A DNA stretch of 64,000 bases from NCBI RefSeq assembly GCF_000701685.1, contig NZ_JNJO01000001.1, positions 1-64,000 on the forward strand, read 5' to 3'. This stretch comes from Gemella sanguinis ATCC 700632. Lineage in GTDB: Bacteria > Bacillota > Bacilli > Staphylococcales > Gemellaceae. Shown one piece after another: positions 895 through 62,064 of the stretch. A model generated the notes under the pieces. That model was not told where the DNA came from, searched no databases, and saw nothing but the letters and a program-made list of their open reading frames with translations. How positions within the stretch are numbered: the stretch's first letter is position 1; every line of letters starts with the position of its first letter. The position numbers were made by a program, and so were the translations under genes.

Positions 895-2085
895 ATGAAA
901 GGAAAATTTAAACCTTTTTCTACCACATTAATTGGAAGTTTACCAAGGTCTAAAGAATTATTATCGCTAAAGGAAAGCAGTAATAATTATGATAAATTTA
1001 AATCACTTTATAGTGAAAAATTGTTAGAAGAGACACAAAAAGTGGTAGAGTTGCAAAAGGATTGCGGAATTGATGTATTAGTTAGTGGAGAATTAAATAG
1101 GGATAACTATATGAGCTATGTTGCAGAAATGGTTGATGGAATTAAGTTATTAAGTATGAATGACTTAAAAGAAATTACTACTAATCTTGAAAGCTTTAAT
1201 AAAAGTTTAGAAGAAATGGATGCAGCAGATAATACAATGAATAGTCCAATTTGTTATTCTAAAATAGATACTACACGTAGACTAAATGAATTAGAAGTAC
1301 ATAATTTTCAAAAATTTATTGATAGAGATTATAAGGTCACTTTACCAAGTCCGTATTTGCTAACTAGATCAATGTGGCTAAGAGAAATTACAGGTAAAGT
1401 CTATGAAGGAAGAAAAGAGCTAGGACATGATGTAGTAGAGTTACTGAAAAATGAAATAAGACATCTTGTTCAAGAAGGTGTAAATATAATTCAAATAGAT
1501 GAACCTATATTGTCAGAAGTTGTTTTTACAAATGAAAAAGCTGATAATTCTTTCTACTGAGGTGCTTTATCAGAGAAAGTCAAGGTTGACAAAGAATTAA
1601 AATTTGCTAGAGAGTTGCTGGAGCCAGTGTTGGAAGAAATAAGAAAACATGATGGGGTATTAAGTATCATGCATGTATGTAGAGGTAACTGGACTACTGA
1701 TGAGAGTGTATTGTTACAAGGAGCATATGATAAATTAGGTAAGTTTTTTGATGCACTTGATTTAGATATGTTAGCTCTCGAATTTTCTACACCTAGGGCA
1801 GGAGAAGTGGAAAAACTGTTTTCTAATAATTTTTTAGATACAAGAGTTATGTTAGGGTTTGGTTGCGTTAATCCCAGAAGTGAAGTAATAGAAACTCCAG
1901 AAGAAATAGTTGCTAGAGTAGAAGAAGTACTTCAATTTTTACCACCAGAAAGAATTTGGTTAAATCCAGACTGTGGATTTGCAACATTTGCTAAGAGACC
2001 ACTTAATCCTTATCCAATAATTCAAAAAAAATTAGAGAATATGGTTGCAGCATCAAAAATACTTAGAGAAAAGTATTGTAAATAA
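895..2085 (+). CDS. MetE-like methyltransferase, candidate selenoprotein (in-frame TGA, Sec222)
   Basis: Read through the TGA at 1558-1560 this is one 396-residue protein of the cobalamin-independent methionine synthase C-terminal (UROD/MetE) superfamily. The N-terminal half has TTLIGSLPRS near the start and IIQIDEP ending at residue 204. The half after the TGA has the expected zinc ligands: His260 and Cys262 in HVCRGN, Glu296 in ALEFSTP, Cys360 in NPDCGF. The frame stays open on both sides with no other lesion. The TGA falls in SFY-U-GALSE; as I recall relatives, this site reads MCGALSE, so selenocysteine would replace a Cys. A stem-loop at 1579-1590 fits a bacterial SECIS. The substrate is not known; such short MetE-like proteins need not make methionine. 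The alternative is a pseudogene by nonsense mutation, with 222 and 175 codon halves. The start follows TAGGAGG. Confidence 0.7.
1558..1590 (+). promoter_or_regulatory. Candidate UGA-Sec codon with SECIS stem-loop
   Basis: The in-frame TGA is at 1558-1560. GTCA (1579-1582) and TGAC (1587-1590) close a 4-nt apical loop AGGT (1583-1586); the A-T pair at the loop edge could also form. The loop begins 22 nt after the TGA, inside the spacing known for bacterial SECIS elements (about 16-37 nt), and carries G in its first two positions. The E. coli fdhF SECIS loop also contains AGGU, which SelB contacts. The stem is short, so this is suggestive rather than decisive. Confidence 0.55.
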
Positions 2086-2087
2086 AA

Positions 2088-2127
2088 AAATAGTGGATTA
2101 ATACTAAATAATATTAATCCACTATTT
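2088..2127. terminator. Bidirectional terminator between metE-like and the minus-strand cluster
   Basis: A 15-bp perfect stem, AAATAGTGGATTAAT (2088-2102) with ATTAATCCACTATTT (2113-2127), flanked by A-runs on the left and T-rich bases on the right. It serves the convergent genes ending at 2085 and 2129. Confidence 0.8.
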
Positions 2128-24376: not shown

Positions 24377-26527
24377 GTGAAATTACTAAAATATTTAAAA
24401 GGCTTTAAAATTGCAATACTAAGTCTAGTAGTAATTTTAGGTGTACGTGTTGTTGCAGAATTAGCACTACCAACTTATACCAGTAATATAGTAGATACAG
24501 GTATTCAACAAAGTGGTATTGAAGATGCTGTACCTAGTAAAATTAGTGAAAAATCACTAAATACTCTGGAGCTGTTTATGTCAGACGATGAAATAAAACA
24601 AGTTACAGAAAATTATACAAAAGATGGGGATACTTATATCTTAAAAAATGTTTCTGATGAAACTCGTATTAAATTAAATGACATCTTTAAAGAAACAACG
24701 ACTGTTGTTCTTGGAGCAAAATCTAATAATACTGATTTAGATCAAGTTGCTCAAGGTGTACAGGCTGGTGTTGTTTCAAAAGATACATTAACAGAGCAAA
24801 GAAAAAAAGCTGTTAGTGATTTAGGAAATTCAGCTGATATGATGACCAAACAGGGTGGAATAAGGTTTGTAAAAGAAGAATATAAACAGATTGGAATTAA
24901 TACTAATGAGATTCGAAGTAATTATCTAAAAGAAGTAGGATTCATGATGATAATCGTTACATTAATTTCAGGTATTGCCAGTATTATTTCAAACTTTATT
25001 GCGAGTCGTGTATCAGCAAAAGTTGCATACAATTTACGTGAAAAACTTTATAATAAAGTACTATCATTTTCTAAGGAAGACGTTGATAAATTTTCAACAG
25101 CTTCATTAATAACTCGTAGTACAAATGATATTCAACAGATTCAAAATGCCTTAAATATGTTTTTATTTATCGCATTCTTCGCGCCAATGATGGCAATGTG
25201 GGGTATTTATAAAGTTACTCAAACAGATACAGGAATGACGTGGATAATAGCGCTAGGTGTTGGTATTTTAGCACTGGTTCTTGCCGTTATTACATTCTTA
25301 GTAATGCCTAAGTTTAAAATAATGCAAAAATTAATTGACAAAGTTAACTTAGTGACACGTGAATTACTTACAGGTATTTCAGTTATTCGAGTATTTGGTC
25401 GTGAAAAACATGAAGAAAAAAGATTCGATAAAGAAAATGTAATATTAAGAGATAATCAACTGTTTGTTAATAGAACAATGTCTGCCCTAATGCCAATGAT
25501 TATGCTTATAATGAATGGTATATCATTATTAATTATTTGGATTGGTGGAAAAAATATTGATGCTGGTAGCATTCAAGTAGGGGATATGATGGCGTTTATT
25601 ACTTACACTATGCAAATAGTTATGTCATTCTTATTCTTTACATTCTTAATGATGCAACTTCCACGTGCAGAGGTTGCTGCAGGGCGTATTAACGAAGTAT
25701 TAGAAGCGCCTGTTACGGTTGTAGATGGAAATGATTTACAAGATGACAAAATAAAAGATGTTAAAGGAACATTAAAATTTGAAAATGTTAGCTTTACATT
25801 TGATGGAGCTGATAGCCCAGTATTAAGTAATATTAGTTTTGAAGCTGAAGCCGGAAAAACTACTGCAATTATCGGAAGTACAGGTAGTGGTAAATCAACA
25901 TTACTTCATTTAATTCCAAGATACTTTGATGCAACTGAGGGTCAAATTACAATAGATGGAACTAATATTAAAGATATTAGCTTAAGTAAATTAAGAGATA
26001 TGCTAGGTTTCGTACCACAAAAAGGTGTGTTATTTAGTGGAACTATCGCATCAAATATTAAATTTGGTGATGAAAATATAAGTGATGAAGATATGTATAA
26101 AGCTGCAGAAATAGCTCAAGCTTTAGAGTTTATTGAAGGAAAAGAAGATAAGTTTGATAGTGAGATATCACAAGGTGGGTCTAATGTATCTGGTGGACAA
26201 AAACAACGTCTATCAATAGCAAGAGCTTTAGCTAAAAATCCTAAAATTCTTCTTTTTGATGATAGTTTCTCAGCACTTGATTATAAAACAGACGTTAAAT
26301 TAAGAAAAACATTAAGAGAAAAAATGCAAGATACTACAACTATTATTGTAGCACAACGTATTGCAACTATTCTTAATGCAGATAAGATTATAGTAATGAA
26401 TGAAGGAGAAGTAGTAGGTATTGGTAAGCACCAAGAATTACTAAAAACTTGTCCAACATATTTAGAAATTGCAGAAAGTCAATTAAGTGAAGAAGAATTG
26501 GCAAAAGGAGGTAAGCACAATGAGTAG
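24377..26527 (+). CDS. ABC exporter half-transporter with degenerate nucleotide site
   Basis: 716 residues from a GTG. Six membrane helices and a C-terminal ATPase. An extra domain of about 120 residues sits outside between helices 1 and 2 (about 45-180), common in Firmicutes multidrug-type heterodimers. The ATPase has Walker A GSTGSGKST and signature VSGGQKQ, but Walker B ends FDDSFSALD with Asp in place of the catalytic Glu, and the H-loop reads VAQRIAT with Gln for His. It is therefore the non-hydrolysing half, to pair with the next gene's product, which it overlaps by 8 bases. Substrate unknown; drug or peptide export is the usual guess. Confidence 0.9.
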   Translation: MKLLKYLKGFKIAILSLVVILGVRVVAELALPTYTSNIVDTGIQQSGIEDAVPSKISEKSLNTLELFMSDDEIKQVTENYTKDGDTYILKNVSDETRIKLNDIFKETTTVVLGAKSNNTDLDQVAQGVQAGVVSKDTLTEQRKKAVSDLGNSADMMTKQGGIRFVKEEYKQIGINTNEIRSNYLKEVGFMMIIVTLISGIASIISNFIASRVSAKVAYNLREKLYNKVLSFSKEDVDKFSTASLITRSTNDIQQIQNALNMFLFIAFFAPMMAMWGIYKVTQTDTGMTWIIALGVGILALVLAVITFLVMPKFKIMQKLIDKVNLVTRELLTGISVIRVFGREKHEEKRFDKENVILRDNQLFVNRTMSALMPMIMLIMNGISLLIIWIGGKNIDAGSIQVGDMMAFITYTMQIVMSFLFFTFLMMQLPRAEVAAGRINEVLEAPVTVVDGNDLQDDKIKDVKGTLKFENVSFTFDGADSPVLSNISFEAEAGKTTAIIGSTGSGKSTLLHLIPRYFDATEGQITIDGTNIKDISLSKLRDMLGFVPQKGVLFSGTIASNIKFGDENISDEDMYKAAEIAQALEFIEGKEDKFDSEISQGGSNVSGGQKQRLSIARALAKNPKILLFDDSFSALDYKTDVKLRKTLREKMQDTTTIIVAQRIATILNADKIIVMNEGEVVGIGKHQELLKTCPTYLEIAESQLSEEELAKGGKHNE

Positions 26528-33861: not shown

Positions 33862-34509
33862 ATGAGAATTTTGTGTATAGGAGATAGCAATACATGGGGG
33901 GCAACTCCAGGTGAAGACAGTTTAAGATTGGAGAGACGTTGGACAAAAGTTCTTCAAGAATTACGTCCAAATGATGAAATAATCGAAGAAGGGTTGAGCG
34001 GAAGAACAATTACTGCAAAAGATACTATTGTACCTGTTCGTTGTGGAGTAGATACACTTCCACTATTAATGTTAAGTCATGTTCCAGTGGATTTAGTAAT
34101 AATTATGCTAGGAACAAATGATTTGAAAAAACAATTTAATCCAAGTGCAAAACATTTGGCAAGAGGAATTGAAGAGTTTATAAAATATATTAGAAACCCT
34201 CACTTAGTAGAGAACTATAAAACTCCTAAAATTCTTGTAGTATCACCAGTTCACCTTCGTGATGAAATTTTAGAAAGACAGAATTCATTTGGTGAATATG
34301 ATGAAAACAGCTTAAGACAATCTAGATTCTTAGCTCAAACTTATAAAGAAGTAACAGATAAATATGGAGTTGATTTCTTAAATGCTTCTAGAGTAGCAGA
34401 AACTTCAGTGGTCGATTGCATCCATATAGATGAAAAAAATCATGAATTACTGGGACGTTATATTTCTAGTAAAATTTCAGAAATTCTAGATTATCAAGAA
34501 GCAAGATAA
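33862..34509 (+). CDS. SGNH/GDSL-type hydrolase
   Basis: 215 residues from the ATG at 33862; a GTG 12 bases upstream overlaps the AAAGGTGGAG site. The SGNH blocks are complete: IGDSNTWGATPG (Ser), GLSGRT (Gly), GTNDLKKQF (Asn) and DCIHIDEKNH (Asp/His). No signal peptide, so a cytoplasmic esterase or acyl hydrolase, similar to arylesterase-type members. Substrate unknown. It runs opposite to the metal exporter, leaving about 190 bases of shared upstream DNA. Confidence 0.88.
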   Translation: MRILCIGDSNTWGATPGEDSLRLERRWTKVLQELRPNDEIIEEGLSGRTITAKDTIVPVRCGVDTLPLLMLSHVPVDLVIIMLGTNDLKKQFNPSAKHLARGIEEFIKYIRNPHLVENYKTPKILVVSPVHLRDEILERQNSFGEYDENSLRQSRFLAQTYKEVTDKYGVDFLNASRVAETSVVDCIHIDEKNHELLGRYISSKISEILDYQEAR

Positions 34510-34515
34510 TAAAAA

Positions 34516-34550
34516 AAATAGAAGGCTAGTTTTAAACTAGTCTTCTATTT
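34516..34550. terminator. Bidirectional terminator between SGNH hydrolase and membrane protein
   Basis: A long stem (34516-34530 with 34536-34550, one G-T pair) built on AAATAGAAG and CTTCTATTT around CTAGT/ACTAG. The stop codon of the minus-strand gene lies within it. Confidence 0.85.
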
Positions 34551-35427
34551 TGTATATATCATATTTTCTACGTCCAACAACTAATGAAATAATTGCAATG
34601 ATTACATATAGTATTAAATGACTATATCCAAGTGAAAAGTTCACTAGATATATACCAAATATAATACAATAAGAACCTAAAATAAAATCATTACCTGATT
34701 GTTTATTGATTCCTATATCAACAGTAAGAATTTTTTTGTTGAAGATGTAAAGTAAAGCTATCACCATTATATCTAAAAGTAATGTTTTAATTGCGAAACC
34801 AAAGTATAAAAAGTTTCCAATAATAATAGCTATTACAGATATAATAATCATTACATGAGTGTTAGCAACTAAATGTGAGAAGTTGATATCTTTCACATGT
34901 AAACTTCTAGAAATAAAGCTTGGTAGTAATTGACTTACAATAAGAGCTAGGAAAATAAACCAAAAAGCCCATTTTGTAAATACAAAACCTAATGCCAACG
35001 CAGCTGCTCTACCTAGAAGAATATAACAGAAAGGCTCTGTTAATTTTTTAATCATAAGATCTTCATTTTTTGTAGCAAAGTATTCAACAATATGTTGAAT
35101 AGCTAATAGTACCGCTAAAATTGTTAAAAGTCCTAATAAGAACTTTAATTTAAGTGGTCTATATACAAAAAAGCCAGCTAGTGGAATTATTTGTAACCAA
35201 ACAAATATAAGATTGACTAAACTATCTCGACCGTATCTATTTATATGCATTAATTGTATATTCCAACTATTGAATAAAATCATAAAGACTAAAGCAGTGT
35301 GAATGAAATTTACAAAAGAAAATTTACTGCTGAAATAAAAGAACATTGTCTTACAAATAACCATTGCAAATATACAGCTATAAATAACGATGGAAATATT
35401 TAATCTATTATTTTTTAAATTAACCAT
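34537..35427 (-). CDS. Polytopic membrane protein, unknown
   Basis: 296 residues, nine or ten hydrophobic helices, basic N- and C-termini (VVGRRKYDIYKIED at the end). No transport or enzyme motif that I can name; a low-temperature-requirement-A-like fold is possible from the spacing of helices and the RYGRDSLVNLIFVWLQIIPL block, but LtrA's usual N-terminal motif is not seen. Single minus-strand gene; ATG before ATAAATT..., with a weak AGGAGAT site (35431-35440). Neighbours give no clue. Confidence 0.65.
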   Translation of the reverse strand: MVNLKNNRLNISIVIYSCIFAMVICKTMFFYFSSKFSFVNFIHTALVFMILFNSWNIQLMHINRYGRDSLVNLIFVWLQIIPLAGFFVYRPLKLKFLLGLLTILAVLLAIQHIVEYFATKNEDLMIKKLTEPFCYILLGRAAALALGFVFTKWAFWFIFLALIVSQLLPSFISRSLHVKDINFSHLVANTHVMIIISVIAIIIGNFLYFGFAIKTLLLDIMVIALLYIFNKKILTVDIGINKQSGNDFILGSYCIIFGIYLVNFSLGYSHLILYVIIAIISLVVGRRKYDIYKIED

Positions 35428-61344: not shown

Positions 61345-62064
61345 ATGCTAATTAAATTTTCAGAAAATCTATATTATACAAAACAGCGTTATATGTATCT
61401 AGAACCTGCAATAGGTTATGTAAAAGGTAAATATTTTTCTGTTATGCTTGATGCAGGAAATGGACCTGAACAAGTTAAACAATTTCTTGATGAATTAAAA
61501 GAAAATGAATTACCATTACCTAGCTATATAATACTTACTCATCATCACTGGGATCACAGTTTTGGAGCAGGATATTTGGATATTCCGATTATATCAACGC
61601 AACGAGCAAGAGATGCCCTTGTTGAATTTTCTAATTTAAAATGGGATGATGAAAGTTTATACAAAAGAGTTGAAGAAGGTTCTGAAATTAAATATAGTGC
61701 GGATGTACTAAAAAAGGTTTATGAAAATCATGATATCAAAATAAGAATTCCTGATATGCCTAAAGTAGGTGATATTACTTTGAATTTAGGTGGGATAAAG
61801 TTGAATTGCATAGCTAGTGATAATTCACATTCTGATGATGCATTTTTAATTTATATAGCTGAGGAGAAAGTATTATTTTTAGGAGATAGCCATGCTAAAA
61901 ATTATTATACTAAACCTATGAGCTACGATAAAGTTAAGCTTCGTGATTATATCGATAAGATAACGCAAATTGATTTTGAGTATGCTATCCCAGGTCATGG
62001 GAATATTTTTACAAGAGATGAATTGCTAACTTATTTAGAAAAAGAATATGCAAAAATGAGGTGA
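61345..62064 (+). CDS. Metallo-beta-lactamase-fold hydrolase
   Basis: 239 residues. The metal site is THHHWDHSFGAG (HxHxDH) near residue 65; further ligands are His in ASDNSHSDDAFLIY (about 159), Asp in LFLGDSHAKN (about 178) and His in IPGHGN (about 223). Cytoplasmic, glyoxalase-II-like; substrate unknown. It ends with TGA at 62062-62064, showing that TGA is a normal stop in this genome. It heads an operon with nfeD and floA. Confidence 0.85.
   Translation: MLIKFSENLYYTKQRYMYLEPAIGYVKGKYFSVMLDAGNGPEQVKQFLDELKENELPLPSYIILTHHHWDHSFGAGYLDIPIISTQRARDALVEFSNLKWDDESLYKRVEEGSEIKYSADVLKKVYENHDIKIRIPDMPKVGDITLNLGGIKLNCIASDNSHSDDAFLIYIAEEKVLFLGDSHAKNYYTKPMSYDKVKLRDYIDKITQIDFEYAIPGHGNIFTRDELLTYLEKEYAKMR

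Follow-up and report, generated by a model that had tools for sequence, protein, structure and literature searches.

A MetE-like gene with a conserved in-frame UGA in Gemella sanguinis: a very probable selenoprotein that looks to be missing from current catalogues

The window analysed here comprises the first 64,000 nucleotides of contig NZ_JNJO01000001.1 of Gemella sanguinis ATCC 700632. Near its beginning, on the forward strand, lies a MetE-like gene (895-2085) whose whole frame matches the MetE catalytic domain (PF01717, 7e-33), with a terminal TAA at 2083 and a TGA at 1558-1560 (codon 222) as its sole internal stop. Without recoding, this gene is translated as a 221-aa ORF and a 156-aa remnant, the first start of the remnant being a TTG at 1615. 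A first-pass annotation of the window had described two halves in the same frame with only the TGA between them, and the frame is exactly that: 396 residues interrupted by one TGA, predicted to be read as selenocysteine (Sec; U222 in FY-U-GALSE). On the same strand the gene is preceded by a selenium-metabolism partner gene (488-829) encoding a 113-aa protein with the C-terminal, DsrE-like domain of YedF (TIGR03527 selenium_YedF, 124.9 bits against a cut-off of 110). The terminator scan found a 16-bp hairpin (2088-2127, forward strand; -18 kcal/mol, z -7.5) that closes this two-gene pair.

Two fragments from standard translation could mean a sequencing error, or a pseudogene left by a nonsense mutation in a MetE-like gene. 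A scan of genome contigs yielded seven loci, from Gemella bergeri, Facklamia lactis, Aerococcus and four species of Companilactobacillus; in each of them the corresponding codon is a TGA, the only one in frame. With searches of genomes from the genus, the class and a second order, the total rose to 16 genomes (five Gemella species, Facklamia, Aerococcus, four Companilactobacillus and five further genomes) with the same single TGA and no other lesion, down to 47% amino-acid identity, which excludes chance. Many independent lesions in sister strains would have spoken against the first-pass proposal; sister species share the one conserved TGA, and scattered lesions are absent. The half of the gene 3' of the UGA is under protein-level selection: in Gemella sequences its dN is 0.10-0.16, below that of the 5' part, at a dS of about 1 or more. 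The downstream half is not accounted for by re-initiation, since the stretch from the UGA to the earliest possible restart codon (TTG 1615) is likewise conserved at the protein level. A further argument against a pseudogene comes from the conservation of synonymous codons and from compensatory base pairs, both described below. We consider a broken gene hardly credible, and reject this reading as refuted by conservation across genera.

It is also conceivable that the UGA is decoded otherwise, through recoding as Trp or Cys or through leaky, selenium-free read-through. UGA has been reassigned in some bacteria, and read-through can be programmed; such general knowledge is all that favours this reading, and nothing observed here points to it. 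As the first-pass annotation had stated, TGA is a normal stop elsewhere: it ends the gene at 61345-62064, and two of the 45 window ORFs of at least 150 aa in all. Because it terminates these other ORFs, TGA is a genuine stop in this genome. Further evidence comes from a sister group of homologues, in which the residue-222 column is occupied by Cys in 22/22 genes and never by Trp. Recoding as Trp is thus rejected. Other decodings of the UGA also have to contend with a hairpin at SECIS distance and with Sec machinery in all carriers tested (see below), and they remain very improbable.

Within the MetE-like family the column holds only TGA (16 genomes) or a Cys codon (22 genes); homologues with neither, which would have undermined the selenoprotein proposal, occur only among more distant MetE relatives. 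The first-pass annotation gave MCGALSE for relatives at this site. The Cys is indeed present and this motif was close to the actual ones (MCAALSEK, MCASLSEK or MCGALTAK). One such Cys paralogue is encoded in the same Gemella genome, on contig 20 (L049:2681-3856). A maximum-likelihood tree places all Sec forms on one side, and all Cys forms on the other, of a branch supported at 100/99; without a fixed root, it does not show the direction of change between Cys and Sec. A search among viral contigs found no relatives of the gene.

Bacterial SECIS elements consist of a short stem with a G in the loop, about 16-37 nt from the UGA. We were able to identify a putative element of this kind at 1579-1590 on the forward strand (GUCA-AGGU-UGAC; DNA of the region, GUCAAGGUUGAC). 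A stem of 4 bp and a loop of 4 nt, starting 19 nt past the UGA and with G at loop position 2, occurs in 16/16 genomes. In 15 of these the 5' arm is GUCA and the 3' arm UGAC (once UGAU), and the remaining one, L128, has GCUC-UGGA-GAGC in the identical register despite differing encoded residues. Counting pairs over 15 distinct sequences, we found 100% of cells paired and three pairs changed on both sides, all of them contributed by L128; every slid control scored far lower than the hairpin register.

Codon usage points to the same element. Among 117 columns with an invariant residue in 12 Sec forms, only six use a single codon (TAT154, TGA222, GTC229, AAG230, GAC232 and TTT237), and the UGA and the hairpin codons make up four of these, the latter forming the invariant pattern GTC-AAG-NNN-GAC. 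In the AT-rich window these codons account for 2.8% of Val (GTC), 15.5% of Lys (AAG) and 12.7% of Asp (GAC), and jointly, over five lineages, they have a chance probability of about 1e-10. No stable fold resulted when 69 nt spanning the UGA were folded thermodynamically (z +1.3), so that the hairpin signal rests on the codon and covariation analyses; when 45 nt were folded, this short hairpin was chosen in some species and not in all. Judged by these comparisons, a predicted hairpin at the bSECIS position is conserved with compensatory changes.

The absence of Sec machinery would have refuted the first-pass proposal. The genome encodes all of it: selA (5.9e-157), selB, a tRNA-Sec with anticodon UCA, and selD, itself with an internal UGA (MSEKKMNMIVCGG-U-NSKIGPG). 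These genes are grouped with a full-length yedF on contig 2. A tRNA-Sec above the cut-off was present in 26/26 carrier and sister genomes tested, the model also passing in five control genomes, and SelB was found in 17/17 carrier and sister genomes of a directed test, with E. coli as the only match among the controls. In a class sample of 399 genomes, 90 of them SelB-positive, all 13 genomes with the MetE-like family were SelB-positive, two with Sec forms and eleven with Cys forms only (hypergeometric P of 2e-9, and 3e-8 for the Cys-only genomes). Because the genomes are related these values are optimistic; seven families are involved nonetheless. In the sampled class, then, the Cys forms too occur only in genomes that use Sec, an observation that is new.

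The selD gene lies on the minus strand of contig 2 (L018:10155-11180) and is itself a UGA-containing selenoprotein gene (CGG-U-NSKIGPG), whose start a standard ORF call places 78 nt too far downstream.

The TGA/Cys column, the sel genes with tRNA-Sec, the single conserved TGA and the compensated hairpin agree with the candidate selenoprotein of the first-pass annotation, on comparative evidence only. We are highly confident that 895-2085 is an intact, genuine selenoprotein gene with selenocysteine predicted at residue 222, in the absence of direct proof of Sec incorporation. SelB would bring Sec-tRNA to the UGA at 1558, directed by the GUCA-AGGU-UGAC hairpin.

What kind of enzyme is interrupted by this UGA? 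All zinc ligands had been assigned to the second half of the gene, and they do lie there: H260 and C262 in the H-V-C motif (1672-1680), E296 (1780-1782) and C360 of NPDCG (1972-1974), all on the forward strand. Each is invariant in 27 homologues, and E296 and C360 align to the corresponding glutamate and NPDCG cysteine of T. maritima MetE. The residues that bind homocysteine and methionine in E. coli MetE are Ser433, Glu484 and Asp599 (PMC7857596), and their counterparts S15, E66 and D202 are invariant in the homologues. These data support the prediction of a single-domain ('core') MetE-fold enzyme that has kept its zinc site and its homocysteine/methionine-binding residues; enzyme activity was not assayed.

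An AlphaFold model (pLDDT 85) places residue 222 between the DEP and HxC motifs, in a loop of low confidence (pLDDT 54-57). The predicted fold is shared with canonical MetE (Z 36.6 to T. maritima MetE 1xdj, rmsd 2.6 over 337 residues), as are the zinc and homocysteine residues. However, the MetE-like protein lacks the N-terminal folate domain, scores 107 bits against a cut-off of 930 for the canonical MetE equivalog model, has an invariant Cys/Sec at position 222 in an extra loop, and belongs to a family found only in Sec-utilising genomes among those tested. Its top structural match, tied with MetE, is MesD (3RPD; Z 36.7, rmsd 2.5 over 327 residues, about 20% identity). The folate-independent core methionine synthases MesA-MesD (PMC7857596) have the single-domain architecture in common with it, but neither the selenium-linked neighbourhood nor the Cys/Sec column. 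Since the same Gemella genome also encodes a full-length MetE (C5, 784-aa frame), ordinary methionine synthesis is not likely to require the MetE-like enzyme.

Gene neighbourhoods offer the main hints to function. A YedF-C homologue is encoded close to the UGA gene in 14 of the 16 genomes, in convergent orientation in L128, and an adjacent YedF-C gene is absent at the other two Sec-form loci. One Companilactobacillus has a YedE-like transporter gene near its Sec form. In Aerococcus the gene is followed by one resembling cysteine desulfurase or Sec lyase, with genes for GrdB-type, SelD, YedF-C, SelB and SelA proteins within 18 kb. Some gene names at far loci (SelA, SelB, DUF3343) were read from sequence without scoring.

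The Cys forms occur in two settings. In one group of Bacilli the gene order is TusA, DsrE, a TusA-OsmC fusion and MetE-like, with a rhodanese or DsbD-like protein in some genomes. In Gemella and a second order the genes run acyl-CoA-dehydrogenase-like flavoprotein, PhnD-like binding protein, MetE-like, OsmC-like. In one genome (G942) this second set stands between a tRNA-Sec with YedF-C and selD-selB-selA, and in another (G1100, L138) the Cys form, about 11 kb from selA and selB, lies amid genes for glycine/sarcosine reductase. Cys forms thus sit with selenium or sulfur carriers (YedF/DsrE, TusA, OsmC), and once in a sel island, which is a new observation. Together with the machinery, the neighbouring selenium genes give comparative support to a selenium linkage of the MetE-like gene.

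The sulfur-relay order of TusA, DsrE, TusA-OsmC fusion and MetE-like (Cys) is seen in several families of Bacilli (L118:5423-7952, L113, L114, L117 and L119). The selenium island of G942 (L137:4895-16622) comprises tRNA-Sec, YedF-C, acyl-CoA-dehydrogenase-like, PhnD-like, MetE-like (Cys), OsmC-like and two dehydrogenase-like genes, followed by selD, selB and selA. The Cys paralogue on contig 20 of our Gemella genome (L049:716-4313) is part of a set that also includes acyl-CoA-dehydrogenase-like genes, a gene for a PhnD-like binding protein and, downstream, one for a small protein. Elsewhere, homologues of this set match the NCBIfam models Rv1679 and Rv1680 as well as OsmC, hinting at a related mycobacterial set. 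In G244 (L052:1435-6621) a gene set for an OsmF-like betaine-type ABC transporter lies upstream of the Sec form, whose start coincides with the stop of a rhodanese-containing gene.

We tentatively propose, as a hypothesis that is possible rather than probable, that the protein is a zinc-dependent methyl- or alkyl-transfer enzyme acting in selenium supply; its substrate and chemistry are inferred from context only. A methylated selenium (or sulfur) compound would donate a methyl group to zinc-bound homocysteine. Sec222, or Cys222 in the sister form, would serve as nucleophile or carrier and take the freed selenium; its proximity to the zinc is unmeasured, the loop being of low confidence. The selenium could then be handed to the DsrE/YedF-type carrier encoded upstream, which would feed SelD. 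More speculative still is the extension to a whole family of selenium-mobilising zinc enzymes with the MetE fold: its Sec and Cys versions alike would demethylate organic selenium with homocysteine and pass the selenium via Sec/Cys222 to DsrE/TusA-type carriers for SelD. If true, this would supply a missing upstream step of bacterial selenoprotein synthesis, one that in the Sec version is itself selenium-dependent.

Selenium release is not the only role that a selenoprotein of this fold could have. Sec222 may instead be a redox switch or an extra ligand that tunes an ordinary homocysteine methyltransferase, linked for example to glycine, sarcosine or betaine reductase metabolism. This is a serious possibility, if not a probable one: in two genomes the family, in its Cys and Sec forms, is encoded close to genes for glycine/sarcosine reductase; in G244 the Sec form has a gene for an OsmF-like betaine transporter nearby; and the homocysteine site is kept. 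However, most loci have selenium/sulfur carrier genes rather than reductase genes, and the full-length MetE already present in the Gemella genome also argues against such a role. In another scheme, running in the reverse direction, the enzyme would detoxify or store selenium by methylation, with Sec222 binding selenium. MetE-fold enzymes do transfer methyl groups to thiols, and every carrier tested is a Sec-trait genome; yet the partners that recur are proteins of the carrier type, with none conserved for efflux or methylation, and we regard this scheme as unlikely.

With the same UGA and following hairpin in 16 related genomes, the gene looks like the representative of an uncatalogued selenoprotein family. 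No MetE-like or MetE-fold entry is found in Table 1 of a 2026 catalogue of 119 prokaryotic selenoprotein families (PMC13188914), the main text of the deep-Sep paper (PMC12013277) mentions no MetE-like selenoprotein, and NCBIfam (June 2026) has no matching selenoprotein model. In open-access full texts, with supplements and closed papers outside the search, we could not find an earlier report of a MetE-like selenoprotein; nor, in open-access texts without supplements, a description of a MetE/TusA/DsrE/OsmC module or of carriers paired with a MetE-like Cys/Sec enzyme. The family therefore looks to be missing from current catalogues, and a mention in a supplement is not excluded.

The gene shares with the 119 known families the UGA/Cys pair, a hairpin at the bSECIS position and the SelA/SelB/tRNA-Sec/SelD machinery, but the known families are mostly thioredoxin-fold or redox enzymes, in contrast to the MetE fold predicted here (PMC13188914). 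The bacterial selenoproteome, made up mostly of redox enzymes, would thus gain a family of MetE-fold zinc enzymes. The hosts are lactic-acid-type and oral bacteria, in which standard annotation would split the copies or label them pseudogenes. The route by which selenium reaches SelD in vivo is incompletely elucidated (PMC13188914). The genes adjoining the MetE-like loci belong to the YedF, TusA, DsrE and OsmC families of sulfur/selenium carriers, and a Cys/Sec family that stands beside selenium carriers, only in Sec-utilising genomes of the sampled class, is a testable candidate for the selenium-to-SelD step.

Elsewhere in the Gemella genome, contig 14 contains two matches to the GRDB family, of the glycine/proline reductase type, at 24962-25447 and 34074-35114.
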